Below, piece after piece: positions 10,650 to 63,934 of a stretch of 64,000 nt of DNA. This DNA is from an uncultured Anaerolineae bacterium (GTDB lineage: Bacteria; Chloroflexota; Anaerolineae; J036; Brachytrichaceae). A program made the position numbers and the translations under genes. The stretch is taken from contig CALBEF010000021.1 of assembly GCA_937927775.1 (NCBI GenBank), positions 1-64,000 of the forward strand, read 5' to 3'. Each line of letters opens with the position of its first letter. Positions within the stretch are counted from its first letter, which is position 1. The notes under the pieces are model-generated. The model made no database searches and was not told the origin of the DNA. It saw nothing but the letters and a program-made list of their open reading frames with translations.

Positions 10650-12548
10650 ATGTCCATCTCGTTGACACAGCGCATTCAACCGCCGGCTGCGCTTCGTTTC
10701 AATGAAGTGGTTGGGTTGGATGTCGCCAAACAGGCGCTGCTCTTTCTGGCTGTTGATCCGTCGCTGGCCGGCGTTGCGTTGGCCGCGCCCGTCGGCGCCG
10801 GCAAGTCCACCCTGGCGCGCGCCTTCGCCGCCCTGTTGCCCGACGACGCGCCGTTCGTGGAATTGCCGCTCAACGTCACCGAAGATCGCCTGATCGGCGG
10901 CCTCGATCTGGAAGCGACCCTCGCGCGCGGCGAGCGCGTGGTCGAAGCCGGCCTGCTGGCGCGCGCGCATGGCGGCGTTCTCTACATTGACGGCCTGAAC
11001 CTGCTCGACCCCGGCGTGGCCGCGCACATCATGGATGCCATGGCGCGCGGCGTTGTGCATGTTGAGCGCGACGGAATTAGCGCCGTCCATCCCGCCCGCT
11101 TCAGGCTGATCGGCGCGTTTGACCCCAGCGATGGCCCCGTGGCCGGCAGCCTGCTCGATCGCATCGGACTGATCATCCCCTTCGCCCCACAGGGCGATGC
11201 CGCGATCCGCGCCGAAGTGGTGCGCCGCAATCTGCGGCCCGCCGGCGCGGCGGAAACGGACGAGGCCAACGATGACGCGATGCTGCGCGCGCTGATCGAG
11301 CTGGCGCGCGAGCAGTTGCCGCAGGTCGCCATCCGCGATGAGCAGATGGAGGCGCTGGCCCGTCTGGCGCTCAGCCTGGGCGTCGAGGGCAATCGCGCCG
11401 ATGTGTTTGCCGTCAAGGCTGCGCTCGCCAGCGCCGCATTGGCCGGGCGCGCCGATGTCAGCGACGCTGATCTGGAAGTGGCGGCCAGGCTGGTCCTGCT
11501 GCCGCGCGCCACGCGCTCGCCGCAGCCGGCGCAGGTTGAGCAACAGCCGCAACCCGCCCCAAACCTCGCGCCGAATCCCGACCATCCCGCCGACGACCCG
11601 TCCAATACGCCCGCTGACCAGAAGCAGACGCCAGAGCAGATCGAGGAGCTGCTGATGAGCGCCGTCGAGGCCGATTTGCCCGCCGATCTGTCGAACCTGC
11701 CCTTTGCCACACAACGGCGCGGCAGGACCGGCAGCCGGGGCGTTGCGCTCAACGACCGGCGCGGGCGTTTTGTGCGCGCTGTGCCCGGCCCGTTGCGCGG
11801 CCACAAGATCGCCCTGCTGCCCACGCTGCTGGCTGCTGCGCCCTGGCAGGCGCTGCGCGCAACAGCCGGTGACAGACTGCCGGATGCAGTTAATCATCCC
11901 GCGCCGGTTGTCCGCATCACGCGCGAGGATATTCGCGTCAAACGCTTCCGCGACAAGGCCGGCGCGCTCTTCATCTTCGTGGTGGACGCCTCCGGCTCAA
12001 TGGCGCTCAACCGTATGCGCGAAGCCAAAGGCGCGACGGTGCGCCTCTTGCAGAACGCCTATGTCCACCGCGATCAGGTCTCGCTGATTGCGTTTCGAGG
12101 CCGGGCGGCTCAGGTTCTGCTCCCGCCCTCGCAGAGCGTTGATCGCGCCAAACGCGAGCTGGATGTGTTGCCGACCGGCGGCGGCACCCCCCTGGCGTCG
12201 GCTTTGTGGCTGGCCTGGCAGACTGTGCGCCAGGCGCGCAGCCGGGGCGTCGAGCAGGCCACGCTGGTCTTGATGACCGACGGGCGCGCCAACGTCGCGC
12301 TGGACAGCGCTCACCCTGACAGCGGCGAGGCCGGCCCCGAACCAGCCGGCGCCGACAAAGAACAAATCGTTCGGCAAGTCCAACAGCTTGCCCGACGCAT
12401 CGCCTGCGACCGAATCAACGCGGTGGTCATCGACACGCAGGCTGGCTACCTTTCACGTGGCGAAGCGCGCGCGCTGGCCGGCTATCTCAACGGCCGCTAC
12501 GTGTATTTGCCCAACGCGAAAGCGCATCAGATTGCGGAGGCAATATGA
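10650..12548 (+). CDS. bchD: magnesium chelatase subunit D
   Basis: Second AAA+ subunit of Mg chelatase, 632 aa. Domain order: AAA+ module (about 15-330), Pro-rich acidic linker (about 290-345), von Willebrand A domain (about 420-632) with MIDAS motif DASGSM. Walker A (GAGKST) is kept, but the Walker B Glu seen in BchI (IDEVNLL) is Gly here (IDGLNLL), as expected for an ATPase-impaired partner. The integrin-I domain is thought to contact BchH. Start ATG 10650 lies 1 nt after bchI; the stop overlaps the bchH start by 4 nt. Confidence 0.96.
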   Translation: MSISLTQRIQPPAALRFNEVVGLDVAKQALLFLAVDPSLAGVALAAPVGAGKSTLARAFAALLPDDAPFVELPLNVTEDRLIGGLDLEATLARGERVVEAGLLARAHGGVLYIDGLNLLDPGVAAHIMDAMARGVVHVERDGISAVHPARFRLIGAFDPSDGPVAGSLLDRIGLIIPFAPQGDAAIRAEVVRRNLRPAGAAETDEANDDAMLRALIELAREQLPQVAIRDEQMEALARLALSLGVEGNRADVFAVKAALASAALAGRADVSDADLEVAARLVLLPRATRSPQPAQVEQQPQPAPNLAPNPDHPADDPSNTPADQKQTPEQIEELLMSAVEADLPADLSNLPFATQRRGRTGSRGVALNDRRGRFVRAVPGPLRGHKIALLPTLLAAAPWQALRATAGDRLPDAVNHPAPVVRITREDIRVKRFRDKAGALFIFVVDASGSMALNRMREAKGATVRLLQNAYVHRDQVSLIAFRGRAAQVLLPPSQSVDRAKRELDVLPTGGGTPLASALWLAWQTVRQARSRGVEQATLVLMTDGRANVALDSAHPDSGEAGPEPAGADKEQIVRQVQQLARRIACDRINAVVIDTQAGYLSRGEARALAGYLNGRYVYLPNAKAHQIAEAI

Positions 12549-15500
12549 AAGTGAAGCGCACCCCCGATACCCACAAACAACCCGCCGCGCCGGCGACGGA
12601 TGAGGGCCGGCTGAACGCAGTTGCCGTCGTCGGCATGGAAAACTTCAATCGCAGCGTGTGGACGCAGGTCAAAAGCGACCTCGCGCCCGATATTCACCTC
12701 CAGCAATGGACCGACCTTGACCTTGACCGCAAGCCGCCCGAACTGGCCCAGGCGATTCAGGAAGCCGACTGCCTGTTCCTCACCATGATTAATTTCAGGG
12801 AGCAGGCGGATTGGCTGCGCGAACAGGTCGCCCGTTCACGCGCGCAGACGATCTTCGCCTACGAATCGATGCCGGAGATCATGGCGTTGAACAAAGTCGG
12901 CGACTACGCGGTCAGCGGCAAGGGCGGGATGCCGGAGCCGATCAAGCGCGTGGCGCGCCTGCTGGTGAAAGGCCGTGAGGAAGACACGCTGTACGGCTAC
13001 ACCAAACTGATGAAGCTCATGCAGACCATGATGCGCTTCATGCCGGACAAGGCGCGCGACTTCAAAAACTGGATGACGGTCAACATCTACTGGAACCAGC
13101 CGCTGCCGCGCAACATCGTCAACATGTTCCGGCTGATCGCCCGCGAGTACTTTGGCCGCCCGCTGCCGGTCGAACCGGTGGTCGAAGTGCCGATGATGGG
13201 CCTGTATCACCCCGACGCGCCCGGCTTTTTTAAGGATATGAAATCCTTCCGCGAGTGGGAGCGCCGCCGCAAGCCGGAAGTCAGAAGTCAGAACACAGAA
13301 GTCAGAAGTCAGACGGCTGAAGACGCGCCACCCAACACCCAACACGCAACACGCAACACGCAACATGCAATACGCACTACGCGACACGCAACACGCAAAT
13401 CAACCGTCGGCCTTCTCTTTTTCCGCAAACACCTCGTGCAGGAGCGCGGCTACATCGACGACGTGATTCGCGCCTTCGAGAACGCCGGCCTGTCGGTGCT
13501 GCCGATGTTTGTGGCCGGCATCGAGGGGCATGTGGCCGTGCGCGACTGGCTGGCCAAAGAGAAGATCGATCTGCTGGTCAGCACGATCGGTTTTGCCCTG
13601 GTGGGCGGGCCGGCCGGCTCTACCGCCCCCGGACTGTCGGTCAAAATCGCCAACGACATTCTGGGCGGCATGAACGTCCCCTACATCGTCGCGCAACCCC
13701 TGTACGTGCAGGACTTCGACGCCTGGCAGCGCGTGGGTGTTGGGCCGATGCAGTCCACGGTGTTGTACGCGCTGCCGGAGATGGATGGCGCAATCGACCC
13801 TGTGGTGATCGGGGCGTTGCACAACGGCGGCTTCCGCACCGCCCCCGACCGGCTGGAGCGTCTGACAACGCTGGCGCGCAACTGGATTGCGTTGCGCCAC
13901 ACGCCCAACAAAGACAAGCGCCTGGCGATTGTGGCGTACGACTACCCGCCCGGCCTGGGCAGGAAAGCCACCGCCGCTTTGCTCGATGTGCCGCGCAGCC
14001 TGCTCAACCTGCTGCGTCGTTTGCAGGCTGAGGGCTACCACACCGGCCCGCTGCCCGAAACGCCCGAACGTCTGTTTGAAATGCTCGATGCGGCCACCGG
14101 CGCCAACGCGGACGGTGTCTGCGTCACCGCCGATCAATACCGCGCCTGGGTTTCGCCCGATGAGCGTGAGCGTATCGAAGCGCGCTGGGGCGCGTTCCCC
14201 GGCGAGATTGCCCCGCAGGGCCGCGATCGTGTCTTCATCGGCGGGCTGCAACTCGGCAACATTTATATCGGCGTGCAGCCGCGCTTTGGCGTGCAGGGCG
14301 ACCCGATGCGCCTGTTGTTCGACAAGGCCAACACCCCGCATCATCAGTACATCAGCTTTTACCGCTGGATCGCGCGCGGCTTTGGCGCGCATGCGCTCAT
14401 CCATGTTGGCATGCATGGCTCGGCGGAATGGATGCCCGGCCTGCAACTGGGCCTGACGCGCCAGTGCTGGTCAGACGCGCTCCTCGGCGAATTGCCGCAT
14501 CTTTATCTCTATCCGGTCAATAACCCCAGCGAGGCCAACATCGCCAAGCGGCGCGGCTACGCTGTGATGATCTCGCACGCCACGCCGCCGATGACGCGCG
14601 CCGGCCTGTACAAAGAGCTGGCCGCGCTCCGCGAGATGCTGGATGACTATCGCCAGCGCGCCGCCGACCTGCGCCAGGCCGGCCAGACTGCCGACGCCAC
14701 ATTTGAAGAGGCCGTGCTGCGCAAGGTCGCGCTGGTCAACCTTGACAACGATTGCCCGCGCCATGCCGATGAGCCGTTCGACGATTACGCCAGCCGGCTG
14801 TACGCCTATCTGCGCGAGCTGGAAGACCGCCTCATCACCGGCGCGCTGCATGTGCTCGGCGAAGCCTCGCCGATTGACACACAGGCCGTGGTCATCACCG
14901 AACTGTTGAAGGCGCGCGGCAACGGCCATTCGCTGGCTGCGTTGACGATGCGCGCGCTGGACGGCGGCTCAGCGCCGTCGGGCTATGCCGACCTCGCCGC
15001 GCGCGCGCGCCAGGGCGACCCCGCCGCGCTGCAACGCCGCGAGCAGGTTGATCGCGCCTGCCGCGAGTTTGTGGAGTGCAGCATTCTGGGCGCTGAGCAG
15101 CCCGGCCCGGCCTTCAGTCGCGCCACCGGCGCCCAACAAGTGGATAGCGAGACCGCACAGGCCCTGGACGCCATGACCCGCGCCGGCCGGGAACTGGCGC
15201 GCGCGTTGTCCGATCATCGCGCCGAGGTAGACGCCGTCGTGCGCGCGCTGGCCGGCGGTTTCATCCCCTCCGGCCCTGGCGGCGATCTCATCCGCGATGG
15301 GATCAACGTGCTGCCCACCGGCCGCAATATCCACGCCATTGACCCCTGGCGCATTCCGTCTGAACTGGCGTTTGCGCGCGGCGCGCAGATCGCCGATGCG
15401 ATTCTGGCCCGCCATCTTGAAGAGAACAACGGCGCTTACCCGGAGACCATCGCGCAGGTGCTGTGGGGCCTCGACACCATCAAGACAAAGGGCGAGGCGA

Positions 15501-16507
15501 TCGGCACAGTGCTGCGGTTGATCGGCGCGCGCCCTGCCTACGACGGGCAGGGCAAGATCAGCCACTATGAGTTGATCCCGTTGAGCGAACTCGATCGCCC
15601 GCGCATTGACGTGCTGATGAATCTCAGCCCGGTCTTCCGCGACACGTTTGGAATTGTCATGGATCATCTGGATCGGCTGGTGCGCGCCGCCGCGCAGGCC
15701 GATGAGCCGCCGGAGCTGAACTTCATCCGCAAACATGTTCAGGAACAGATGGCCGCCGGCGCGGATTTTGACTGCGCCACCGCCCGTCTGTTCACCCAGT
15801 CGCCGGGCAACTACGGCACGTATGTGGATGACATGATCGAAGACTCCGCCTGGCAGACTGAAGACGATCTCGACGCTTTGTTCATTCGCCGCAACGCCTA
15901 CGCTTATGGCGGCAAGCGACACGGCGAACACGCGCCCGAAATCTTCCAGCGTTTGCTGGGCACGGTGGGCCGCGTGGTGCAGGAGATCGACTCGGTGGAG
16001 TTTGGCGTGGCTGACATCGATCATTACTTCGCCTCCTCCGGCGCGCTGCATCTGGCGGCCCGCCGGCGTCATCACAACGGCGTCCCCGTCAAGCTGAACT
16101 ACATCGAATCGTTCACCGCCGAAACCCGCGTTGACGACGTGGACAAAGTGCTGCGCATGGAATACCGCTCCAGGCTGCTCAACCCGCGCTGGTACGAGGG
16201 CATGTTGCAGCACGGCCACAGCGGCGCCGCAGAGATCAGCAACCGCTTTACCTACATGCTGGGCTGGGACGCCGTGAGCAACAGCGTGGATGACTGGGTG
16301 TACACGCAGGCCGCGCAGACATACGCGCTCGACCCGGCCATGCGCGAGCGGCTGGCCAAAGCCAACCCCCAGGCGATGCGCAATATCGTCGGCCGGCTGC
16401 TTGAGGCGAACGGGCGCGGGCTGTGGCAGGCCGATGACGCGATCATTGAGCAGTTGAGGGAGATGTACGCCGATCTGGAAGACCGGCTGGAAGGAGTGCC
16501 GGCGTGA
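12545..16507 (+). CDS. bchH: magnesium chelatase subunit H (with an in-frame repeat tract)
   Basis: Large porphyrin-binding subunit that inserts Mg2+ into protoporphyrin IX. 1320 aa; GGAGG 4 nt before ATG 12545, which overlaps bchD. Conserved blocks such as NPSEANIAKRRGYAVMISH and NRFTYMLGWDAVSN show the CobN/BchH fold is complete. Residues about 245-285 are foreign-looking: a Gln/Thr/Arg-rich stretch containing NTQHATRNTQHAIR, encoded by tandem short repeats of the kind found in nearby intergenic gaps. It falls in a linker before the conserved STVGLLFFRKH strand, so the enzyme may tolerate it. The total frame is preserved. Other BchH paralogues may exist elsewhere; only one is here. Confidence 0.96.
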   Translation: MKVKRTPDTHKQPAAPATDEGRLNAVAVVGMENFNRSVWTQVKSDLAPDIHLQQWTDLDLDRKPPELAQAIQEADCLFLTMINFREQADWLREQVARSRAQTIFAYESMPEIMALNKVGDYAVSGKGGMPEPIKRVARLLVKGREEDTLYGYTKLMKLMQTMMRFMPDKARDFKNWMTVNIYWNQPLPRNIVNMFRLIAREYFGRPLPVEPVVEVPMMGLYHPDAPGFFKDMKSFREWERRRKPEVRSQNTEVRSQTAEDAPPNTQHATRNTQHAIRTTRHATRKSTVGLLFFRKHLVQERGYIDDVIRAFENAGLSVLPMFVAGIEGHVAVRDWLAKEKIDLLVSTIGFALVGGPAGSTAPGLSVKIANDILGGMNVPYIVAQPLYVQDFDAWQRVGVGPMQSTVLYALPEMDGAIDPVVIGALHNGGFRTAPDRLERLTTLARNWIALRHTPNKDKRLAIVAYDYPPGLGRKATAALLDVPRSLLNLLRRLQAEGYHTGPLPETPERLFEMLDAATGANADGVCVTADQYRAWVSPDERERIEARWGAFPGEIAPQGRDRVFIGGLQLGNIYIGVQPRFGVQGDPMRLLFDKANTPHHQYISFYRWIARGFGAHALIHVGMHGSAEWMPGLQLGLTRQCWSDALLGELPHLYLYPVNNPSEANIAKRRGYAVMISHATPPMTRAGLYKELAALREMLDDYRQRAADLRQAGQTADATFEEAVLRKVALVNLDNDCPRHADEPFDDYASRLYAYLRELEDRLITGALHVLGEASPIDTQAVVITELLKARGNGHSLAALTMRALDGGSAPSGYADLAARARQGDPAALQRREQVDRACREFVECSILGAEQPGPAFSRATGAQQVDSETAQALDAMTRAGRELARALSDHRAEVDAVVRALAGGFIPSGPGGDLIRDGINVLPTGRNIHAIDPWRIPSELAFARGAQIADAILARHLEENNGAYPETIAQVLWGLDTIKTKGEAIGTVLRLIGARPAYDGQGKISHYELIPLSELDRPRIDVLMNLSPVFRDTFGIVMDHLDRLVRAAAQADEPPELNFIRKHVQEQMAAGADFDCATARLFTQSPGNYGTYVDDMIEDSAWQTEDDLDALFIRRNAYAYGGKRHGEHAPEIFQRLLGTVGRVVQEIDSVEFGVADIDHYFASSGALHLAARRRHHNGVPVKLNYIESFTAETRVDDVDKVLRMEYRSRLLNPRWYEGMLQHGHSGAAEISNRFTYMLGWDAVSNSVDDWVYTQAAQTYALDPAMRERLAKANPQAMRNIVGRLLEANGRGLWQADDAIIEQLREMYADLEDRLEGVPA
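13277..13398 (+). repeat. heptamer-type repeat tract inside bchH
   Basis: First part is AAGTCAG-type units (13277-13310), second part is CGCAACA-type units with a 7-bp period (about 13330-13398). Read on the minus strand the order is TTGCGTG units, then a linker, then CTGACTT units, the same order as the tracts at 17499 and 18798. It is translated as a 7-residue periodic peptide because 21 nt equals three units. Confidence 0.9.
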
Positions 16508-16535
16508 GGGCGCCCGCTCAGGCGAGTGAAGTCCG

Positions 16536-17498
16536 ATGAAGACGAAAGCGATTGTGTTTCCTGCTGCGCAGACGGTTGAACTGCGCGAAGTCGAGCTGAA
16601 GGCGCTGGGCGATGAGGACGCGCTGATTCGCACCCATCTCACGTCGATCAGCGCCGGCACAGAGCGCATGTTGTTTCGCGGCGTCATGCCGCATCCGATG
16701 TTGCAATTCCCGGTTGTGCCGGGCTATGAAACGGTGGGCGAAGTGATCGAGGCCGGGCCGGCGGCGCGCAGTTGGCTTGGCAGGCGCGTCTATGTCGGCG
16801 GCAACTACGGCTTTGTCGGCGTCAACCCCGCCTTCGGCGGCCAGAGCGCGCACATCGTCGCGCCGCAGTCGCATCTGACCGAGCTGGGCGCGTTGACCGA
16901 CGCGCAGGGCGTCATGCTGGCGCTGGCGGCCACGGCGCTGCACGGCGTGGATCAGGCCGGTATCCAGGCCGGCGCGCGCGCGCTGGTGCTGGGGCAGGGC
17001 GTTGTCGGCCAACTGGCCGCGCGGATTGCCAAAGCGCGCGGCGCGCATGTCACCGTCACCGACAAAGTTGAGCGCCGGCTGACGCTCTCGGTCGCCGATG
17101 ACAAGTGGCTGATCGGCAACGCGCCGCCTCCCGTTAATCCCCACGCGCCTTTTGATGTGTTGATTGACGCCACCGGCAAGATGGAGGCTATCGCCCCGTT
17201 TCTGATGGCGACGCAGAAAGGGGGGCGCGTGGTATTGCTGGGCTATTACGACGCGGTTCACCTGCCGTATATGCCCATCTTCCTGCGCGAACTATCGCTG
17301 GTCGCCAGCAAGGAATGGGCGGCCGGCGATCTGGCCCGCGCGCGCGATTTGATCGCTGCCGGCCAGCTCGAGGTGGATTCGCTCATCACCCATCGTCTCA
17401 GCGCCGATGACGCCCCGCGCGCCTTTGACATCGCCTTCAACGACCCGGCCTGCGTCAAGCTGGCGCTCGACTGGGAAGGAGTGGAGGTTGAGGGCTGA
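16536..17498 (+). CDS. bchC: bacteriochlorophyllide 3-hydroxyethyl dehydrogenase
   Basis: Oxidises the C3 hydroxyethyl group (made by BchF) to acetyl. 320 aa, medium-chain dehydrogenase fold: catalytic half with SAGTERMLFRG and FPVVPGYETVGEV, then a Rossmann half with ALVLGQGVVGQLAARIAKARGA binding NAD(P). It lacks the zinc-binding Cys pattern of typical alcohol dehydrogenases, as is usual for BchC. 28 nt separate it from bchH. A related MDR protein of unknown substrate occurs at 36079-37065. Confidence 0.93.
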   Translation: MKTKAIVFPAAQTVELREVELKALGDEDALIRTHLTSISAGTERMLFRGVMPHPMLQFPVVPGYETVGEVIEAGPAARSWLGRRVYVGGNYGFVGVNPAFGGQSAHIVAPQSHLTELGALTDAQGVMLALAATALHGVDQAGIQAGARALVLGQGVVGQLAARIAKARGAHVTVTDKVERRLTLSVADDKWLIGNAPPPVNPHAPFDVLIDATGKMEAIAPFLMATQKGGRVVLLGYYDAVHLPYMPIFLRELSLVASKEWAAGDLARARDLIAAGQLEVDSLITHRLSADDAPRAFDIAFNDPACVKLALDWEGVEVEG

Positions 17499-17617
17499 GG
17501 GGTGCGTGTTGCGTGTTGCGTATTCCGTATTGCGTGTTGCGTATTCCGTATTCTGCAGTCTGTCATCTGACTACTGACTACTGACTACCGACTACTGACT
17601 ACTGGCTATTGACCACC
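17499..17617 (+). repeat. two-module heptamer repeat between bchC and bchX
   Basis: From the bchC stop to just before the bchX ribosome site. Left module: units such as TTGCGTG/TTCCGTA with a 7-bp period (about 17504-17553). Linker: CTGCAGTCTGTCATC. Right module: GACTACT units (about 17568-17608). No promoter is evident in it. The same arrangement recurs upstream of bchY. Confidence 0.92.
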
Positions 17618-17627
17618 GGAGGCTCCC

Positions 17628-18797
17628 ATGACCCCGCGCATGATCGCCATTTACGGCAAAGGCGGCATCGGCAAAAGTTTCTTCACCGCCAACCTGACCG
17701 GCAAAATGGCGCTGAAGGGATTGCGTGTGCTGCAACTTGGATGCGACCCGAAACATGATTCGTGCAACGCCCTGTTCGACGGGCGCAGCCTGCCCACCAT
17801 CGGCGATCAGTGGCGGCTGATGAAGGAGGCCGGCCACGAGAAAGAACTGGATGTCAGTCACCTGATCTATCGCACCGACCTGACCGGTCGGGGGCATGTG
17901 GTGTTTGGCGCGGAACTGGGCGGGCCGGAAGTCGGGCGCGGCTGCGGCGGGCGCGGCATCTCATTCGGCTTTGGCCTGCTTGAGGAGCGCGGCATGGCCG
18001 GCTGGGCGCTCGACTACATCGTGATGGACTTCCTGGGCGATGTGGTGTGCGGCGGCTTTGCCACGCCCATCGCCAAAAGCATGGCCGAAGAGATCATCAT
18101 CGTCGCCTCGCACGATCGCATGAGCCTGTACGCGGCCAACAACATTGTTCGGGCCGTGAACTATTTCGCCGGCATGGGCGGCAAGTCGCGCGTCATTGGC
18201 ATGGTGCTGAACCGCGACGATGGCAGCGGCGTAGCTGAGCGATTCGCCGCGCAGGTTGGGCTGCCCATCCTGCTCAAAGTGCCCTATAGCCCGGCTGCCC
18301 GCGCCCTCAGCGACCGCTGCAAGCTGCTGTTCGAGTTGCCGGAGATGGACGCGCTGTTCGATCAGTTTGTCAACAAGATTCATTACCGCGACTACGCCAC
18401 CCCCGAACGCCTGACGCCGCTGGAATACGGCGAGTTTCTGGAGGTGTTTGGCGCTGCCGAGCCGCCCGACTTGCCGCAATCGGCCACCCTCCAGGAGTTG
18501 ACCGGCCGCGCCGCCGGCCCTGCGCAGGGGGTTGACCTCAACAGCCCTGAGTACAGCGACGATGCGCGTTTGATCGTGCGCCGCATCATGGCCGACATGG
18601 GCCTGACTGTCACGCGCCTGGTTGAAGAGCCGGAGCGCGGCGTGGTTGTCACCAGCGATCAGGGCTGGGAAGCCATCTTCGGCAATCCGCGCGAAGAGAT
18701 CGACGCCAAGATTGCCATTTTGTCCGCCCTCAGTCACAGCGGCGAAAAGTTCCACCTGGCCGACCTGCGCCACACCGCCGCTCCGTTTTACGAGTGA
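17628..18797 (+). CDS. bchX: chlorophyllide reductase iron protein
   Basis: ATP-dependent Fe-S electron donor (NifH-like homodimer) of chlorophyllide a reductase; passes electrons to BchYZ for ring-B reduction. 389 aa, ATG 17628 preceded by GGAGG. P-loop YGKGGIGKS at residues 9-17; 4Fe-4S ligand Cys in GRGCGGRG and DVVCGGFATP. Compared with BchL/NifH it has the C-terminal extension typical of BchX (about residues 285-389). Flanked on both sides by heptamer repeat tracts instead of ordinary spacers. Confidence 0.96.
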   Translation: MTPRMIAIYGKGGIGKSFFTANLTGKMALKGLRVLQLGCDPKHDSCNALFDGRSLPTIGDQWRLMKEAGHEKELDVSHLIYRTDLTGRGHVVFGAELGGPEVGRGCGGRGISFGFGLLEERGMAGWALDYIVMDFLGDVVCGGFATPIAKSMAEEIIIVASHDRMSLYAANNIVRAVNYFAGMGGKSRVIGMVLNRDDGSGVAERFAAQVGLPILLKVPYSPAARALSDRCKLLFELPEMDALFDQFVNKIHYRDYATPERLTPLEYGEFLEVFGAAEPPDLPQSATLQELTGRAAGPAQGVDLNSPEYSDDARLIVRRIMADMGLTVTRLVEEPERGVVVTSDQGWEAIFGNPREEIDAKIAILSALSHSGEKFHLADLRHTAAPFYE

Positions 18798-18946
18798 TGA
18801 GTGATGAGTGCGGAGTACGTGTTCCGTATTGCGTGTTGCGTGTTGCGTATTCCGTATTGCGTGGCTCGCAATCCCCGCTCTTTCATCTGCACTCCGCCAT
18901 CTGACGACTGACTACTGACTACTGACTACTGACTACTGACGACTCC
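18798..18946 (+). repeat. two-module heptamer repeat between bchX and bchY
   Basis: Same design as the tract before bchX: TTGCGTG/TTCCGTA units (about 18828-18865), a linker containing CATCTGCACTCCGCCATCTGA, then CTGACTA/CTACTGA units (about 18902-18943). It ends 2 nt before the bchY ATG, so the last unit (GACGACTCCCA) occupies the ribosome-binding region and no Shine-Dalgarno is left. Confidence 0.92.
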
Positions 18947-18948
18947 CA

Positions 18949-20322
18949 ATGGAAACCCAACCAACCACCCCCTCGCACGATGTGTCTGTGTCGCCCGATC
19001 AGGCGTTGACGCCGCAGACGATGTGCCCGGCCTTTGGCAGCCTGCGTGTGCTGACGCGCATCGATGGCGTGCAGACGGCTATGGTCACCGACACCGGCTG
19101 TTTGTACGGCCTGACCTTTGTGACGCACTTCTACGCCGCCCGCAAATCCATCGCAGCGCCGGCGCTGGGCACGCAGGAGCTGATGGCCGGCAACATTGCC
19201 GAGGCCGCGCGCGCGGCCTGTGAAGAAGCCGCCCGCGCGCCTGGCACAAAGCTGGTTGCTGCGCTGTCCTTGTGCGTAGCCGAGACCGCCGGCCTGACCG
19301 AGGAGATGTTGCCCCCGCAGATCAACGGCGCGGATGTGGTGCTGGTGCGCGTGCCGGCCTACGCCATTCACTCGCACCCCGAAGCCAAAGATGTCGCCAT
19401 CAGCGCGCTGTTGAAGAAGTTCACCGCGCCGGCCCGTCCTGCCGATGCGCAGGGCGTCGAACAGCCCCTGACCTGGGATCAGCCCGCAACCTCGGCAGAA
19501 GACCTGAGCCGCAAGGTCATCATGCTGGGCGAGGTCTTCCCCGCCGACCCGATCACGGTAGACGCGGCGCTGAAGAAGATGGGCGCATCGCTGGCGGCTA
19601 ATTTGCCCTCGCGCAGCCTGGATGATTACAGGATGGCCGGCAAGGTGGGCGCGATTGCCGCGCTGCACCCGTTCTACGCGCAGAGCGTGGCGACGCTGCG
19701 CGCCGCCGGCGTGCCAATTGTCAGCGGCGCGCCGATCGGCGCAGAAGGCAGCTATGGCTGGCTGAAAGGCATCGGCAACGCGCTCAAGCTCGATCCTGAT
19801 CTGGTCGAGGCCGTTGCTGTCGAAGAGCGCGACAAATGCCGCGCCATCATCGCCGCCAATCCTCTCAGCGGGCGCATTCACATTTGCGGCTACGAGGGCA
19901 ACGAGCTGGGCTATGCCCGGCTGCTGGTCGAGGCCGGCGCGCAGGTGCCCTACATCAGCACGTCCATCGAAAAGTCGCTCTACACCGCCGCCGACGAAGC
20001 CTGGTTGAAGGCGCATGGCACGATTGAAGTGGTGTATCGCAAGAAACTGGAGCAGGACATGGCGGCGCTAGATCGCTACCATCCCGATCTGGTGCTGGGC
20101 ACTACGCCGCTTTCGGCGGCGGCGAAGGCGCGCGGCATCCCCGGCCTGTACTACACCAACATGCTCAGCGTGCGCCCGCTGTTTCTCAGCGCCGGCCTGG
20201 CCGGGACCATCGGCCTGATTCGCGACGCCCTGTCGCGCGCGCCGCGCTATCAGTGGATGCGCGAGTTCTTCACCGGCGAGGCAGCCCCCGTCGTCTCTGC
20301 TCCTGTCAATACGCTGGACTGA
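18949..20322 (+). CDS. bchY: chlorophyllide reductase subunit Y
   Basis: NifD-like catalytic subunit of chlorophyllide a reductase, pairing with BchZ. 457 aa from ATG 18949. Likely Fe-S ligand Cys residues occur in TMCPAFG, TDTGCLYG and LSLCVAE in the N-terminal third. The following Rossmann-like domains contain VAALSLCVAETAG and IHICGYEGNELGYARLL. The start abuts a repeat tract and has no visible ribosome site, which may lower translation or mean the true start is slightly different. 35 nt separate it from bchZ. Confidence 0.94.
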   Translation: METQPTTPSHDVSVSPDQALTPQTMCPAFGSLRVLTRIDGVQTAMVTDTGCLYGLTFVTHFYAARKSIAAPALGTQELMAGNIAEAARAACEEAARAPGTKLVAALSLCVAETAGLTEEMLPPQINGADVVLVRVPAYAIHSHPEAKDVAISALLKKFTAPARPADAQGVEQPLTWDQPATSAEDLSRKVIMLGEVFPADPITVDAALKKMGASLAANLPSRSLDDYRMAGKVGAIAALHPFYAQSVATLRAAGVPIVSGAPIGAEGSYGWLKGIGNALKLDPDLVEAVAVEERDKCRAIIAANPLSGRIHICGYEGNELGYARLLVEAGAQVPYISTSIEKSLYTAADEAWLKAHGTIEVVYRKKLEQDMAALDRYHPDLVLGTTPLSAAAKARGIPGLYYTNMLSVRPLFLSAGLAGTIGLIRDALSRAPRYQWMREFFTGEAAPVVSAPVNTLD

Positions 20323-20357
20323 TTCGCTCAATCCATCACATCTCACAACAACGCGCT

Positions 20358-21848
20358 ATGGACCAATCCAAAATCGAGCTGATCCGCGACCTGGACACCA
20401 CCAGCGGCTACTGGGCGGCGGTGTGGACGATGTGCTGCCTGCCCGATGTCCATGTGGTCTGTGACGCGCCGATCGGCTGCTTCAACCTCGTCGGCACAGC
20501 CGTGCCCGATTACACCGACGCCATCCCGCACATTGACAACCTGACGCCCTCGGTGATGCGCGAGCAGGAAGTGACCATGCTGGGCACCGCCGGCGCCGTG
20601 CGCCGCGCGGTCGAGGCTGTTCGCGCCCGGCATCCCGACCGGCAAATCATCGTGGTCAGCACTGCCGAAAGCGAGATGATCTCGTCCGATCACGCCGACT
20701 GGTTGGACAAGCTCGACCCGCCCGTGCCGTTTTACTGGAGCCGCTCGCTGGAGGAAGATGAATGGGCCGGCCGCGACCGCGCCCTGCTCTGGTTATGGGA
20801 ACGCTTTGGCGCGGCGCAGGCCGGCAGCATTGCGCCGCAGGCCGGCGTGGTCAACATCATCGGGCCGACGTATGGCTGCTTCAACGCGCCGGCTGATCTG
20901 CACGAGATCAAGCGATTGATCGAAGGCGCCGGCGGACGGGTCAATCTCGTGTATCCCTTTGCGGCGCGCCTGAGCGACACGCTTCGCCTGATCGAATCCG
21001 CCGTCAACGTGGTGATGTACCGCGAGTTTGGCGAAGGGCTGGCGCAGGCGCTGGGCCGGCCTTATCTCTTTGCCCCGCTCGGCATCCGCGAGACGACCGA
21101 CTTCATCCGCGAGCTGGGCCGGCTGTTGGGAACCGAAGCGCAGGCCGAAGCCTTCATCGAACAGGAGAAGCGCGACACGCTGCAACCGCTGTGGGATTTG
21201 TGGCGCGGGCCGCAGGGCGACTGGTTCCCCACCACCGAGTTCGCTGTTGTGGCCGGGCGCACCTATGCTGACGGGCTGGTGAAATTCCTCGGCGATGAGC
21301 TGGGGATGCGGCCTGTGTTTGCCACCGGCCGGCCGGTCAAAGCCGGCGAAATGGACAACCTGGCCGCGCGCGAATTCCTGCACAAGCGGCAGCCCGGTTT
21401 TGTCTTCGGCAGCATCAACGAGAAGATTTACCTGGCCGAGGCCGGCGCGCGCGCCACGCACTTCATCCCGGCCAGCTTCCCTGGCCCGATCGTGCGCCGC
21501 GCGCTGGGCACGCCCTTCATGGGCTATTCCGGCGCGGTGTACCTCGTTCAGGAAATGGTCAATCGGTTCTACGAGTCGGTCTTCAACTTCCTGCCGATCG
21601 ACACGGTGAAGCCTGCGGCGCCGGCCGGCCCGCCCGGAGCGCCTGTTGCGCAGCCGGCCGGGCGGGTGGCATGGACTGACGCCGCCCGCGCGCAGCTTGA
21701 TGCGCATTTGGAAAACATCCCCTGGCTCAGCCGCATCAGCGCCAGCCGCGATCTGCGCGCGCAGGTCGAGGGCTATGCCCTGCGCAATCAGATCGCCGAA
21801 GTGACGCCCGAAGTGGTCGAGCGCGCGCTGCAGGGAGCAGCCATCTGA
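20358..21848 (+). CDS. bchZ: chlorophyllide reductase subunit Z
   Basis: NifK-like subunit; with BchY forms the tetramer that reduces the C7-C8 bond of chlorophyllide a. 496 aa from ATG 20358; the longer frame from 20253 overlaps bchY and is rejected. An N-terminal Cys-rich stretch (TMCCLPDVHVVCDAPIGCF) supplies the Fe-S ligands. The C-terminal 100 residues include an Ala/Pro-rich linker and then a three-helix tail with AQLDAHLENIPWLSRISASR, which is conserved in protochlorophyllide and chlorophyllide reductase large subunits. Confidence 0.95.
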   Translation: MDQSKIELIRDLDTTSGYWAAVWTMCCLPDVHVVCDAPIGCFNLVGTAVPDYTDAIPHIDNLTPSVMREQEVTMLGTAGAVRRAVEAVRARHPDRQIIVVSTAESEMISSDHADWLDKLDPPVPFYWSRSLEEDEWAGRDRALLWLWERFGAAQAGSIAPQAGVVNIIGPTYGCFNAPADLHEIKRLIEGAGGRVNLVYPFAARLSDTLRLIESAVNVVMYREFGEGLAQALGRPYLFAPLGIRETTDFIRELGRLLGTEAQAEAFIEQEKRDTLQPLWDLWRGPQGDWFPTTEFAVVAGRTYADGLVKFLGDELGMRPVFATGRPVKAGEMDNLAAREFLHKRQPGFVFGSINEKIYLAEAGARATHFIPASFPGPIVRRALGTPFMGYSGAVYLVQEMVNRFYESVFNFLPIDTVKPAAPAGPPGAPVAQPAGRVAWTDAARAQLDAHLENIPWLSRISASRDLRAQVEGYALRNQIAEVTPEVVERALQGAAI

Positions 21849-21918
21849 AGCCGCCAACTTTCCCAACTTTGCGAACCTTACCAACCTTACCAACTTTACC
21901 AACCTTCCTGACCCACTC
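21849..21918 (+). repeat. short tandem repeat after bchZ
   Basis: About six loose copies of an ACCTTACCA/ACTTTACCA unit with a 9-10 bp period. It fills almost the whole gap between bchZ and the next ATG (21921) and leaves no Shine-Dalgarno. Different unit from the heptamers but the same habit of filling spacers. Confidence 0.75.
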
Positions 21919-21920
21919 CC

Positions 21921-22526
21921 ATGCACAACTACTTCATCGGCGACAACGGCGTGTTCGACACGCCCCTGGCAGCGGCGCTGTTCTCGATCATTCTGATCGG
22001 CTTCATGCTGATCGAAACCCGTTTTAAGATTCGCGCCCCGCGCGACGCCAAACGGGAATCCGCGCGCACTTTTCTGCCGCTGGCGGTTGCCATTCCCATC
22101 AGTCTGCTTGCTCCGTTGATGTGCGGATTTTTGAAACTGGGCGTGATACGCGGCGACATGCGCGGCACATGGGTGACGCTGGGCGTGCTGATGATGGCCG
22201 GCGGGCGCTTGTTGCGCGCGTGGGCGCAGATGCACATGCGCCATCTGTACATCGGCGAAGCTGCCGTGCAGCCGGGGCATCGCGTGGTGGACACCGGCCC
22301 CTACCGCTGGATTCGCCATCCCGGCTATGTCGGCGGCACGCTGACTGCCATCGGCATCGGCCTGGCGTTGTCGAGCTGGCTGGGCGCACTGTTGGCGGGG
22401 CTGGTTCTGGCCGCTGCTTATACCATTCGCATCCCACGCGAGGAAGCATTGCTGGCGCAGGAAATGGGCGACGCCTATCGCACTTACATGGCGCGCACCA
22501 AACGGTTCATCCCGTATTTGTTTTAA
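21921..22526 (+). CDS. isoprenylcysteine-carboxyl-methyltransferase-like membrane protein
   Basis: 201 aa, four to five membrane helices. The C-terminal half has the ICMT/phospholipid-methyltransferase signature: GPYRWIRHPGYVGG (SAM/headgroup region) and a closing RIPREEALLAQEMGDAYRTYMARTKRF, rich in the usual E-E-x-x-L pattern. Bacterial members methylate lipids or are of unknown substrate; no prenyl-cysteine proteins are expected. Its position directly after bchZ suggests it may act in pigment, quinone or membrane modification, but this is context only. Confidence 0.8.
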   Translation: MHNYFIGDNGVFDTPLAAALFSIILIGFMLIETRFKIRAPRDAKRESARTFLPLAVAIPISLLAPLMCGFLKLGVIRGDMRGTWVTLGVLMMAGGRLLRAWAQMHMRHLYIGEAAVQPGHRVVDTGPYRWIRHPGYVGGTLTAIGIGLALSSWLGALLAGLVLAAAYTIRIPREEALLAQEMGDAYRTYMARTKRFIPYLF

Positions 22527-48353: not shown

Positions 48354-48500
48354 CGCGTTGCGTATCACGTGCTGCGTATTGAGTGTTGCGTATCCGGGCT
48401 CCGTGCGCCCGACTGGGTTTGCTCCAGGCGCTACGAAATGCGCAATACGCAATACGCAATACGAAATACGCAATACGCAATACGCAATACGAGACACGCC
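48354..48500. repeat. inverted heptamer repeat tract between convergent genes
   Basis: Left arm of TTGCGTA-type units (about 48354-48393), a 40-bp centre, and a right arm of ATACGCA-type units (about 48434-48500), which are complementary. It can fold into a long imperfect hairpin between the GNAT and phosphatase genes, and may act as their shared terminator. Confidence 0.9.
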
Positions 48501-49148: not shown

Positions 49149-50000
49149 ATGGCAATACAAGTAGCTGCGCACTGGCTGGCGCTGATCGCGTTCACGGCGC
49201 TGGCCGGCGGCATAATCGTTTCGCTGATCGTGATGCGGTCGGCGGCGGCCCGGCCACTCGTCGAAGCGGTTGCTGCGGCGCGGCGGCGCTGGCTGGCCGG
49301 CTGGCTGCTGGCCGGCGCGGTTGCCAGCGCGCTGGCCTGGCTGACTGCGCCGGCTGTGTTTGAAGATGCCCGCGCCGGCTGGCTGCTGGCTGCGCGGCTG
49401 GCCTTGTTGAGCGCAATGGCATGGGCTGTCTGGCGACGCAGGGAAACGGGCGCATGGATCGTTGCGCCGGCTCTGGGGCTGCTGCTCACGCAGAGCCTGC
49501 TGAGCCGCAGCGCAGCCCTGCCCGATTGGATCGGACACACGTTAAACGACTGGTTCCACATGACCCTGACGGCGCTGTGGCTGGGCGGTGTCGCTCTGCT
49601 GGCGTTCGTTGTGATCCCGGCGGTCGCGCAGAGGCCGGCCCTGCTGGGGGCGTTTTCACACGTTGTGGATCGCTTCTCGCCGCTGGCGATGTTCTGTGTG
49701 CTCGGGCTGGGCATCAGCGGCGTCATTCAGGCCGGCGCATTCGTGCGCGACCTGAGCGCGCTGATCGAAACGGACTATGGCCGGGCGCTCTCGGCTAAAC
49801 TGGTGGTTGCCGTTGCGCTGGTTGGATTCGGCGCGCTGCATCAACAGGTGATTGCGCCCCGCCTGCGCCTGTGGCAATTTAAAGCCGGCCAACTTCAGGC
49901 AGAACGGGCAACCTTGCGCTTTAGAATCAGCTTATACGCCGAGGTCGCAGCAAGCATGATCCTGCTGCTGTTTGTGGCGATGATGAAGAGTCGTCAGTAG
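49149..50000 (+). CDS. CopD-like copper resistance membrane protein
   Basis: 283 aa, eight helices from ATG 49149; upstream extension to 49041 would overlap the phosphatase gene. Contains His residues in helices typical of CopD (HWLALIAFTALAGG, DWFHMTLTALWLGGVALLAF, FGALHQQVI). The family takes copper or is part of cytochrome oxidase assembly. No CopC is adjacent. The 3' end runs into a heptamer repeat (TCGTCAG). Confidence 0.8.
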   Translation: MAIQVAAHWLALIAFTALAGGIIVSLIVMRSAAARPLVEAVAAARRRWLAGWLLAGAVASALAWLTAPAVFEDARAGWLLAARLALLSAMAWAVWRRRETGAWIVAPALGLLLTQSLLSRSAALPDWIGHTLNDWFHMTLTALWLGGVALLAFVVIPAVAQRPALLGAFSHVVDRFSPLAMFCVLGLGISGVIQAGAFVRDLSALIETDYGRALSAKLVVAVALVGFGALHQQVIAPRLRLWQFKAGQLQAERATLRFRISLYAEVAASMILLLFVAMMKSRQ

Positions 50001-50158
50001 TCAGTAGTCAGTCGTCAGTAGTCAGTCGTCAGTCGTCAGTAGTCAGTAGTCAGTAGTCAGTCGTCAGTCGTCAGATTAGAGAAGGGCGTCAATCGTCAAT
50101 CGTCAATCGGTCAATCGGCAATGGCTCAATCGGCAATGGCTCAATCGTCAATCGGCAT
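49990..50158 (+). repeat. heptamer repeat tract between copD and the molybdopterin oxidase gene
   Basis: First module: GTCAGTA/GTCAGTC/TCGTCAG units, 7-bp period (about 49990-50078). Second module: TCAATCG units (about 50089-50158), partly inside the next gene's start. It provides the N-terminal MAQSAMAQSS of the next protein. Confidence 0.92.
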
Positions 50159-52445
50159 CTCACTCCCGCGCATTGATGCGCGCGCGAAAGTCACCGGCGA
50201 GGCGCTGTACCCCGGCGACATCAACCTGCCCGGCCAGGCATACGCCAAAGTGTTATGGGCCAAACGCCCGCACGCGCGGGTGCGCGTCATCGACACCCGC
50301 GCCGCCGAGGCTGTGCCCGGCGTGCTGGCGATCTTCACCGGCGACGATGTGCCGGTCAACGAGTACGGCTTGATCGCGTTCGACGCGCCGGTATTGATTC
50401 GGCCAGAGTTCAGATATCGGCTTTCAGAAGTCAGAAGCCCGGAAGCAGAGATTACAGCGCAAAGCGCCGCGCAGTCGTCAATCGTCAATCACTCAATCGT
50501 CAATTCCACAATCCAAAATCCCAAATCCCAAAATTCAAAATCGTTCGACGGGGTTGTGCGGCATGTGGGGGAGAAGGTGGCGCTGATAGTAGCTGAGACA
50601 GAACAGATCGCAGCGCAGGCGCGCGACCTGATCCGCGTGGAATACGAAGACCTGCCGGCTGTCACCTCGATGCGCGAGGCGATTGAGCCGGGCGCGCCGC
50701 AGGTGCATCCGCACTATTCGGGCAACGTGATCAAAAAATACCGCGTGCGCAAAGGGGATGTGGAGGCCGGCTTCGCGCAGGCCGATGTCATCATCGAGGA
50801 CACCTACTTCACCGGCGCGCAGGAACACGCCTACCTGCAACCAGAGGCCGGGCTGGGCTACATCGACGAGCAGGGCCGGGTGACAGTGATGGTGGCCGGC
50901 CAGTGGACGCACGAGGATCAACAGCAGATCGCCCATGCGCTCGATTTGCCGGTTGATCAGGTGCGCGTGATCTACCCGGCCATCGGCGGCGCGTTTGGCG
51001 GGCGCGAGGACATGAGCGTGCAGGTCATCCTGGCGCTGGCGGCGTGGAGGTTGCGCCGGCCGGTGAAGATCATCTGGTCGCGCGAGGAAAGCATCATCGG
51101 CCATCACAAGCGCCATCCGATGTGGTTCCACGCCAGGCTCGGCGCGAAGCGCGACGGCACGCTGGTCGCGGCGCAGGTGGAATTGATATCCGACGCCGGC
51201 CCCTATGCCTACACCAGCGCGAAAGTGCTGGGCAATGCAACGGTGATGGCCGTCGGCCCCTATGACATCCCAAACGTGGCGATCGACGCGCAGACGGTGG
51301 TCACCAACAATCTGCCCACCGGCGCTTTTCGCGGCTTCGGCGCGCCGCAGTCGCTCTTTGTGGCCGAGACGCAGATGAACAAGTTGGCCGCCGCGCTGAA
51401 GATGGACCCGGTCGAACTGCGCTTGAAGAACGCGCTGCGCGACGGCAGTCTGACCGTAAACAACACGCCCATTCGACCCGGCTGCACAATCCGCGATGTG
51501 ATTCAACAGTGCGCCGCGCGCGCTCAATCCAATCCCAAATCCAAAATCGAAAATCCAAAATCGAAGATCGGGCGCGGCTTTGCCTGCGGGCACAAGAACG
51601 TGGGCTTCTCATTCGGCGCGCCGGAGAGCTGCGAGGCTGCGGTCGAATTACACGGCGGCAGAGAAATCGAGCGCGCGGTGGTGTATCACGCCGGCGCCGA
51701 TTGCGGGCAAGGCGCGCACACCGCGTTTGTTCAGATTGCGGCTCATGCGTTGGGGCTGCCGGTGGAGAAGATCGAACTTGTCGCCAGCGACACAGCCAGC
51801 AGCGGCAACAGCGGCTCGGCCTCAGCTTCGCGCATGACGTTCATGGCCTCGCACGCCATCTTTGGGGCAGCGCACGCGGCGCTGGAAAAGTGGAAGGATG
51901 AGGAGCGCCCGGCGCGCGCGCACTACATCTATCGTCCCCCGCCCACCACCGCCATGGACCCTGACACCGGCGCAGCCGATCCCACGGTCAGCTATGGCTA
52001 CGTGGCGCAAGGCGCCGAAGTCGAAGTGGACACAGAGACCGGCCAGGTGCGCGTGCTGCGCCTGGTGTGCGCCGATGACGTGGGCAGGGCAGTCAATCCG
52101 CAGCAGGTCGTCGGTCAAATCGAGGGCGGCGTCGTCATGGGCCTGGGCTGGACGGCGCTGGAGAACTTCGTGCAGCGCGACGGCCATGTGTTGACCGAAC
52201 ACCTCAGCACCTATCTGATCCCATCGGTCATGGATATCCCGGATGTGGTCGAGTCGGTGGTAGTGGAAAATCCCGACCCGCACGGGGCAATGGGGATTCG
52301 CGGCATGGCCGAGATGCCGTTGCTGGTGGTCGCGCCGGCAGTTGTGGCCGCCATTCACGACGCCACCGGCGTGTGGATCAACGAGTTGCCGGTGACGCCG
52401 GAGCGCCTGCTGAACGCGCTGGAGCAGGCCAACTCGGCGCGCTAA
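50121..52445 (+). CDS. xanthine dehydrogenase/aldehyde oxidase-type molybdopterin subunit (with two repeat inserts)
   Basis: 774-aa catalytic subunit of a molybdenum hydroxylase. It has the N-terminal RIDARAKVTGEALYPGDI start, QPEAGLGYID, IGGAFGGRED, the LPTGAFRGFGAPQ block and, near the C terminus, GIRGMAEMPLL with the active-site Glu. No FAD or 2Fe-2S subunit genes are adjacent. Two stretches are encoded by short repeats: residues about 101-141 (contains SSIVNHSIVNSTIQNPKSQN) and about 469-486 (NPKSKIENPKSKI). The start itself lies in a repeat tract, so the true start may be near residue 10-14. Substrate unknown. Confidence 0.88.
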   Translation: MAQSAMAQSSIGISLPRIDARAKVTGEALYPGDINLPGQAYAKVLWAKRPHARVRVIDTRAAEAVPGVLAIFTGDDVPVNEYGLIAFDAPVLIRPEFRYRLSEVRSPEAEITAQSAAQSSIVNHSIVNSTIQNPKSQNSKSFDGVVRHVGEKVALIVAETEQIAAQARDLIRVEYEDLPAVTSMREAIEPGAPQVHPHYSGNVIKKYRVRKGDVEAGFAQADVIIEDTYFTGAQEHAYLQPEAGLGYIDEQGRVTVMVAGQWTHEDQQQIAHALDLPVDQVRVIYPAIGGAFGGREDMSVQVILALAAWRLRRPVKIIWSREESIIGHHKRHPMWFHARLGAKRDGTLVAAQVELISDAGPYAYTSAKVLGNATVMAVGPYDIPNVAIDAQTVVTNNLPTGAFRGFGAPQSLFVAETQMNKLAAALKMDPVELRLKNALRDGSLTVNNTPIRPGCTIRDVIQQCAARAQSNPKSKIENPKSKIGRGFACGHKNVGFSFGAPESCEAAVELHGGREIERAVVYHAGADCGQGAHTAFVQIAAHALGLPVEKIELVASDTASSGNSGSASASRMTFMASHAIFGAAHAALEKWKDEERPARAHYIYRPPPTTAMDPDTGAADPTVSYGYVAQGAEVEVDTETGQVRVLRLVCADDVGRAVNPQQVVGQIEGGVVMGLGWTALENFVQRDGHVLTEHLSTYLIPSVMDIPDVVESVVVENPDPHGAMGIRGMAEMPLLVVAPAVVAAIHDATGVWINELPVTPERLLNALEQANSAR
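50426..50545 (+). repeat. repeat tract inside the molybdopterin gene, site 1
   Basis: TCAGAAG, CAATCGT and CAAAATC-type units in series, coding for the Ser/Gln/Asn-rich insertion at about residues 101-141. Same unit types as intergenic tracts at 50090 and 63935. Confidence 0.85.
51525..51572 (+). repeat. repeat tract inside the molybdopterin gene, site 2
   Basis: CCAAATC/CAAAATC units, 7-bp period, coding for NPKSKIENPKSKI. The same unit lies upstream of valS at 63935-63988 in the opposite strand sense. Confidence 0.88.

Positions 52446-60940: not shown

Positions 60941-63934
<2,994 letters not shown>

Follow-up and report, generated by a model that had tools for sequence, protein, structure and literature searches.

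Two short gaps flanking bchX in this Chloroflexota genome carry the same two heptamer arrays in the same order, which raises the question of whether they are copies of one composite element that moves or is copied as a unit, as an earlier note had proposed. We analyzed the surrounding 64,000 nucleotides (hereafter, the window), which are positions 1-64000 of one contig in a 3.55 Mb draft genome of 135 contigs. BchC, BchX, BchY, BchZ, BchD, and BchH were assigned using TIGRFAM equivalogs above cut-off, and the nearest BchX proteins (96 to 76% identity) belong to Candidatus Roseilinea and other Thermoflexales MAGs of the Chloroflexota. A search of the window with Rfam returned only one tRNA. The elements at bchX and bchH, compared where indicated with the sister species Ca. 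Roseilinea mizusawaensis (G401, L062), are the following.

17503..17553, + strand: gap 1 (bchC-bchX), TTGCGTG/TTCCGTA arm, inward from the left (sequence and TRF)
17554..17613, + strand: gap 1, in-register transition CTGCAGTCTGTCATCTG and CTGACTA arm, up to just before the bchX start region (sequence and TRF)
17628..18797, + strand: bchX (TIGR02016), flanked by both elements
18792..18812, + strand: gap 2 (bchX-bchY), short GAGTGAT module, leftmost and outermost, overlapping the bchX stop
18818..18863, + strand: gap 2, TTGCGTG/TTCCGTA arm, missing here in the sister species (sequence, TRF, and sister comparison)
18864..18900, strand not applicable: gap 2, non-periodic linker with CATCTG
18901..18944, + strand: gap 2, CTGACTA arm; the sister has a CTGTCAT/CTGACTA-type arm at the same site (sequence, TRF, and sister comparison)
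13277..13313, - strand: bchH-internal element, CTGACTT arm (GAAGTCA on the + strand) (TRF)
13329..13398, - strand: bchH-internal element, TTGCGTG arm, an in-frame expansion (TRF and sister comparison)

Both the sequence and TRF bear out the layout described earlier for the two bchX gaps (TTGCGTG/TTCCGTA units, linker, and CTGACTA units in the same polarity), and the tract in bchH (13277-13398) does keep this order on its minus strand. Two details can be added to that description. The heptamer register of gap 1 is unbroken (GTATTCC GTATTCT GCAGTCT GTCATCT GACTACT), with CTGACTA units at 17567-17613 that follow TTCTGCAGTCTGTCATCTG and form an arm running inward from the right on minus-strand reading, and GAGTGAT constitutes a third module, found before the second TTGCGTG/TTCCGTA copy in gap 2. 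At 18938-18951 of the window and at similar sites, CTGACTA arms often terminate with GACTCCC right before a start codon, without a Shine-Dalgarno sequence, and antisense elements show a comparable CCCATG context. The gap between bchX and bchY holds only the repeat element in this genome, and about 0.8-0.9 kb of extra, coding-looking sequence in several Roseilinea relatives (L063:11170-12143, L064:11161-12059, L068:11167-12080), which differs between L063 and L064/L068.

Arrays of this kind are frequent in the genome. In a 1.11 Mb sample (the window plus L141-L200), we counted 254 period-7 arrays and at most 39 for each of the other periods between 4 and 13, with the caveat that repeats may be collapsed in draft MAGs; a locally shuffled copy contained no period-7 arrays, hence they are not due to chance. 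They are dispersed, and most lie between predicted genes (called with a simple in-house predictor), with some inside ORFs such as bchH. Recurrent words are designated A (TTGCGTA), B (CTGACTA), C (TTGACGA), D (TTTTGGA), E (CTGTCGT/CTGTCAT), and G (GAGTGAT). Because the sample was partly picked for CTGACTA or TTGCGTA arrays, the frequencies of these two words are inflated, but partner and polarity were not used in picking.

Random order and strand of the two arrays, the outcome that the earlier note had set against a composite, were not obtained in the whole genome. TTGCGTR followed within 0-60 bases by CTGACKACTGACKA gave 31 matches at 11 separate loci, the reverse order none, and the two opposite-strand arrangements 0 and 0 (P = 2e-7 for the 11 loci, assuming four equally likely arrangements). 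Local slippage alone, already doubted in the earlier note, does not predict an order that is fixed genome-wide. The bchX gaps are two among many two-armed heptamer elements, each with a pair of period-7 tracks opposed over a short linker, and the order seen there is one instance of a broader inward-facing rule. About six words run inward from the flank (TTTTGGA, TTGACGA, TTGCGTA, GAGTGAT, TAGTCAG, and ACGACAG), the last two being the reverse complements of CTGACTA and CTGTCGT; therefore, CTGACTA is found on the far side of TTGCGTA.

Within 150 bp, the sample contains 48 head-on (left-right) pairs, no right-left pair, and 24 same-facing neighbours. The first right-left pair occurs at 150-300 bp and further ones beyond, where neighbours are separate elements. 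Arm sides of four words were set by same-word opposed pairs (C+C- 6, B-B+ 3, D+D- 2, A+A- 1; the reverse never at this threshold), after which all cross-word pairs agreed. The sister species has 11 head-on pairs and no reverse pair. The rule is strong, not absolute: with more sensitive word matching, inward exceeds outward by 71:3, and two genuine outward-facing TTGCGTA pairs in the sample (L147:10709-10763 and L180:14950-15059) are both centred on palindromic ACGT, with two more outward pairs in other genomes. Base composition follows the same pattern, in that left arms contain 30% G and 16% C, right arms are their mirror image, and each word reads inward from its own flank 5' to 3' on its G-richer strand. 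Using an unsupervised GC-skew test of neighbouring arrays, inward arrangements predominated in the sample (45:2), the sister (9:0), and other Chloroflexota (24:5, mostly other words); this test and the sister genome are independent of word learning, whereas the word classes were partly learned from the data. A very long element in a Roseiflexus MAG (L103:4794-5229), with (TAAGAGG)n facing (GTTCTCG)n, also pairs unlike words with inward polarity. Further elements in the window are listed below.

48359..48499, both strands: same-word convergent element, TTGCGTA on + (48368-) and then on - (48432-48499)
49989..50155, - strand: convergent element, CTGACTA arm (49989-50074) and TTGACGA arm (50087-50155)
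50472..50541, - strand: single arm, TTTTGGA outer and then TTGACGA inner
61780..61966, + strand: convergent element, TTGACGA arm and CTGTCGT arm

Polarity bears no relation to the direction of genes and is identical on the two strands. We rejected gene direction as the factor that sets the order, given that A-B elements occur in both orientations to genes and antisense within ORFs. Judged by word orientation, most arrays within predicted ORFs are antisense (48 vs 7 for words A-E in the sample), and this excess also holds for TTTTGGA, a word with no stop codon in either direction.

Polarity extends further across the phylum than the composite does. TTGCGTA arrays were present in 16 of 400 sampled Chloroflexota, with by far the highest number (344 matches) in this genome. 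In distant Chloroflexota, TTGCGTA is opposed by its own inverted copy, in many cases directly behind a stop codon (8 inward, 2 outward). Outside the genus, the A-B/E composite is essentially absent; within it, the composite occurs in this genome and in G283, which appears to be the same genome as the sister (identical coordinates) and has the composite at four loci in the same order. Almost no period-7 arrays were found in 350 kb of cyanobacterial plasmids.

Words also follow one another in a fixed inward succession within an arm. In the sample, TTTTGGA precedes TTGACGA in 13:0 cases and TTGCGTA in 4:0, and CTGACTA precedes CTGTCGT in 20:1; the same successions occur in the sister (D before C 3:0, D before A 2:0, B before E 2:0). 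Transitions are often in register (e.g., GGATTTT GGATTGA CGATTGA), and the junctions GGATTGACG and AGTCAGAYGACAG recur. Between the left and right arms, the register is kept only in part and is not uniform: of 27 elements, 11 are in phase 3 and none in phase 2. Most elements pair unlike words: ATT-type arms (D, C, A) meet CAG-type arms (B, E) in 45 cases, with 19 ATT-ATT and 7 CAG-CAG combinations. The partner of TTGCGTA is CTGACTA or CTGTCGT in 26 of 28 paired arms, which is above random, and A-B elements make up only part of all elements. Thus, the A-B/E composite is preferred, yet there is no single unit. A comparison of linkers likewise speaks against one mobile unit, as a non-periodic linker was common to only two cluster pairs among about 180 clusters. 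The members of one pair lie 1.8 kb apart on one contig; in the other, the whole element with its linker (order D-C-linker-B) is present at two unrelated loci (L186:13557-13727 and L187:9026-9275), with different flanks on both sides. Whole-element copying therefore does occur, with one clear case, but is rare.

At 34 sites orthologous between this genome and the sister, arms mostly stay in place and words change. In the sister, the gap upstream of bchX contains degenerate TTGCGTG units together with TCTGTAA units, and the downstream gap only a CTGACTA-type arm (CTGTCAT/CTGACTG units) with no TTGCGTA arm. At three sites, both arms have switched, with C facing C here and D facing D in the sister (L143:11409, L143:14800, L153:13739). 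In bchH (reading frame 12545-16507), the sister has TTTTGGA-type words only, and its element is 99 bp shorter (38 vs 137 bp). Relatives carry other short repeats at the position of this insert, and because these differ at the same place, the corresponding loop of the Mg-chelatase H subunit probably tolerates repeat turnover. Among gaps with arrays in this genome, 11 of 17 also have arrays in the sister, compared to 3 of 54 other gaps (p = 1e-6). These comparisons point to sites that are inherited and words that turn over.

What the data directly show is that polarity is inward, that arms are modular, that words succeed one another within them, that sites are inherited although their words change, and that whole elements are copied on rare occasions. 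Our tentative best guess, held at less than even confidence, is that repeats are synthesized inward from both ends of a break. Breaks or stalled forks would recur within an element. At each 3' end, slippage and template switching to copies of the same words at other genomic positions would lengthen the strand inward. Words with a G-rich newly made strand would be favoured in this growth, possibly because slipped G-rich nascent strands are stabilized, and the ends would then be joined, leaving a linker unique to the locus. Inward extension of both 3' ends by slippage and template switching would yield inward polarity, successive words in each arm, unlike arms, and locus-specific linkers; it would also explain why words are common to the whole genome, why both arms change in concert, and why a whole element is occasionally copied. 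Some results run against such growth. The expectation that inner units are the youngest and most uniform found no support: outer units deviate less (1.01 vs 1.42 mismatches per unit, p = 0.01), with the qualification that the next word adjoins the inner ends. The four outward pairs (two here, two elsewhere) do not fit either, and the centre of orthologous gaps did not change significantly more (p = 0.12, 17 gaps).

Selection for a strand-symmetric spacer or two-way signal is possible, albeit on the unlikely side. Selection would maintain facing arms, as an imperfect hairpin or strand-symmetric signal (e.g., a bidirectional terminator, or a spacer that affects mRNA stability or translation), and let the words drift. 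Folding of most same-word elements is far stronger than that of shuffles (z about -2 to -9), array density is low in divergent gaps (0.28 per kb) and high in convergent (1.6 per kb) and tandem gaps (1.8 per kb), sites are conserved between species, and the three double switches agree with such maintenance. Elements of different words, such as TTGCGTA-CTGACTA, mostly show no clear gain over shuffles (most z +1 to -2, few lower), however, and pairing does not account for the invariable location of the G-rich word in the 5' arm. No intrinsic terminator (G+C-rich stem and T run) was found at the three elements in 12500-22000, a region with 4 such structures vs 7.5 expected, and elements also occur inside bchH and another reading frame. 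RNA pairing of the arms was rejected as a sufficient cause: most unlike-word elements fold no better than shuffles, and random arm pairs form equal or better duplexes. Moreover, same-word pairs also obey the polarity, and a hairpin would be equally good with its arms exchanged; thus, pairing alone is not the cause.

A slightly more doubtful explanation is historical. A modest number of ancestral inverted heptamer elements would have spread, with arms that drifted by slippage and occasional gene conversion and a polarity that was simply inherited. The excess of shared array-bearing gaps and the recurrent junctions accord with this, as does period-7 slippage, a known general trend (PMC4679880, citing Mrazek 2007). 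However, further families of the phylum show this polarity with other words, so that the same arrangement would have had to be ancestral many times over, and inherited sites at several loci have switched to the same new word.

The proposal of the earlier note, a mobile composite bounded by TTGCGTA and CTGACTA that is copied as a unit, is already weakened and is improbable. What stands is the fixed order at 11 loci, the preference of TTGCGTA for CTGACTA or CTGTCGT partners, the one whole element common to two unrelated loci, and the restriction of the composite largely to this genus. A single mobile unit in general is not supported, because linkers are almost never shared, many other word pairs obey the same rule, A-B elements are a fraction of the total, and the sister is single-armed at gap 2 and has other words in bchH. 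Nor do the elements behave like MITEs, given that a conserved interior was absent (a shared non-periodic stretch in 2 pairs among about 180 clusters), whole-element presence or absence was not the pattern (corresponding sites in the sister carry incomplete elements or different words), and no target-site duplication was seen in the alignments inspected. The repeats resemble modular, fast-changing spacers and not one moving unit. Highly improbable is a dedicated telomerase-like activity that adds G-rich heptamers, with template-set and species-specific words, to 3' ends at chromosome breaks, the capped ends then being fused, in which case the head-on (G-rich)n-linker-(C-rich)n tracts would resemble telomere fusions.

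Heptamer repeats of cyanobacteria bear the name STRR (short tandemly repeated repetitive). The arrays described here resemble these and long SSRs in their seven-base unit, mainly intergenic location, and several words per genome, and they share the strong 7-bp excess and dispersed distribution that define such repeats. In Nostoc, where the heptamer is GGGGA(T/C)T, few inverted pairs were found, and no order between different words is reported there (PMC4692102). The same study describes 70-75 convergent pairs of the Xanthomonas heptamer GGGAATC per genome, few in divergent gaps and none on plasmids (PMC4692102). These are dispersed intergenic heptamer arrays in convergent orientation that are likewise scarce in divergent gaps, and our same-word elements match them in having one word, facing arrays, and the G-rich strand inward. 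In Xanthomonas, however, one word builds both arms and G-quadruplexes are implied (PMC4692102), whereas our elements combine unlike words that are ordered and replaced at inherited sites, and no GGG run that could form G-quadruplexes exists in TTTTGGA, TTGACGA, TTGCGTA, CTGACTA, or CTGTCGT.

Direct repeats of TAACTGA occur before start codons in Beggiatoaceae, Cyanobacteria, and Bacteroidetes, with a possible translational role (MacGregor, PMC4679880). They are similar to our arrays in being heptamers before starts, with mixed heptamers in some species, and TAACTGA differs from CTGACTA by 2 mismatches after rotation; in the available part of that report, they are presented as one word with no opposed partner arm, in contrast to our two-armed arrays. 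Chloroflexus aurantiacus, also a phototrophic member of the Chloroflexota, has heptamer satellites of the single word GATAGRA, the arrangement of which is not reported in the available part of PMC6749651. REP/BIME elements differ in being 20-40 bp palindromes that bear a GTAG or CGTC tag and are accompanied by a RAYT transposase, whereas ours are heptamer arrays and not short palindromes.

Intergenic heptamer repeats and convergent same-word pairs are therefore already known, and the polarity of unlike words, their succession, and their turnover go beyond them; we found no polarity rule for unlike words, in-arm succession, or word replacement at inherited sites among the open-access papers covered by our search. 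In many bacterial genomes, no long simple repeats are commoner than those of period 7 (PMC4679880, citing Mrazek 2007), and the literature cited here offers no consensus on what accounts for their length, their spread, or the words they share. The inward facing of unlike words, their order within arms, and the persistence of sites with word replacement together place a strong constraint on how such arrays originate.
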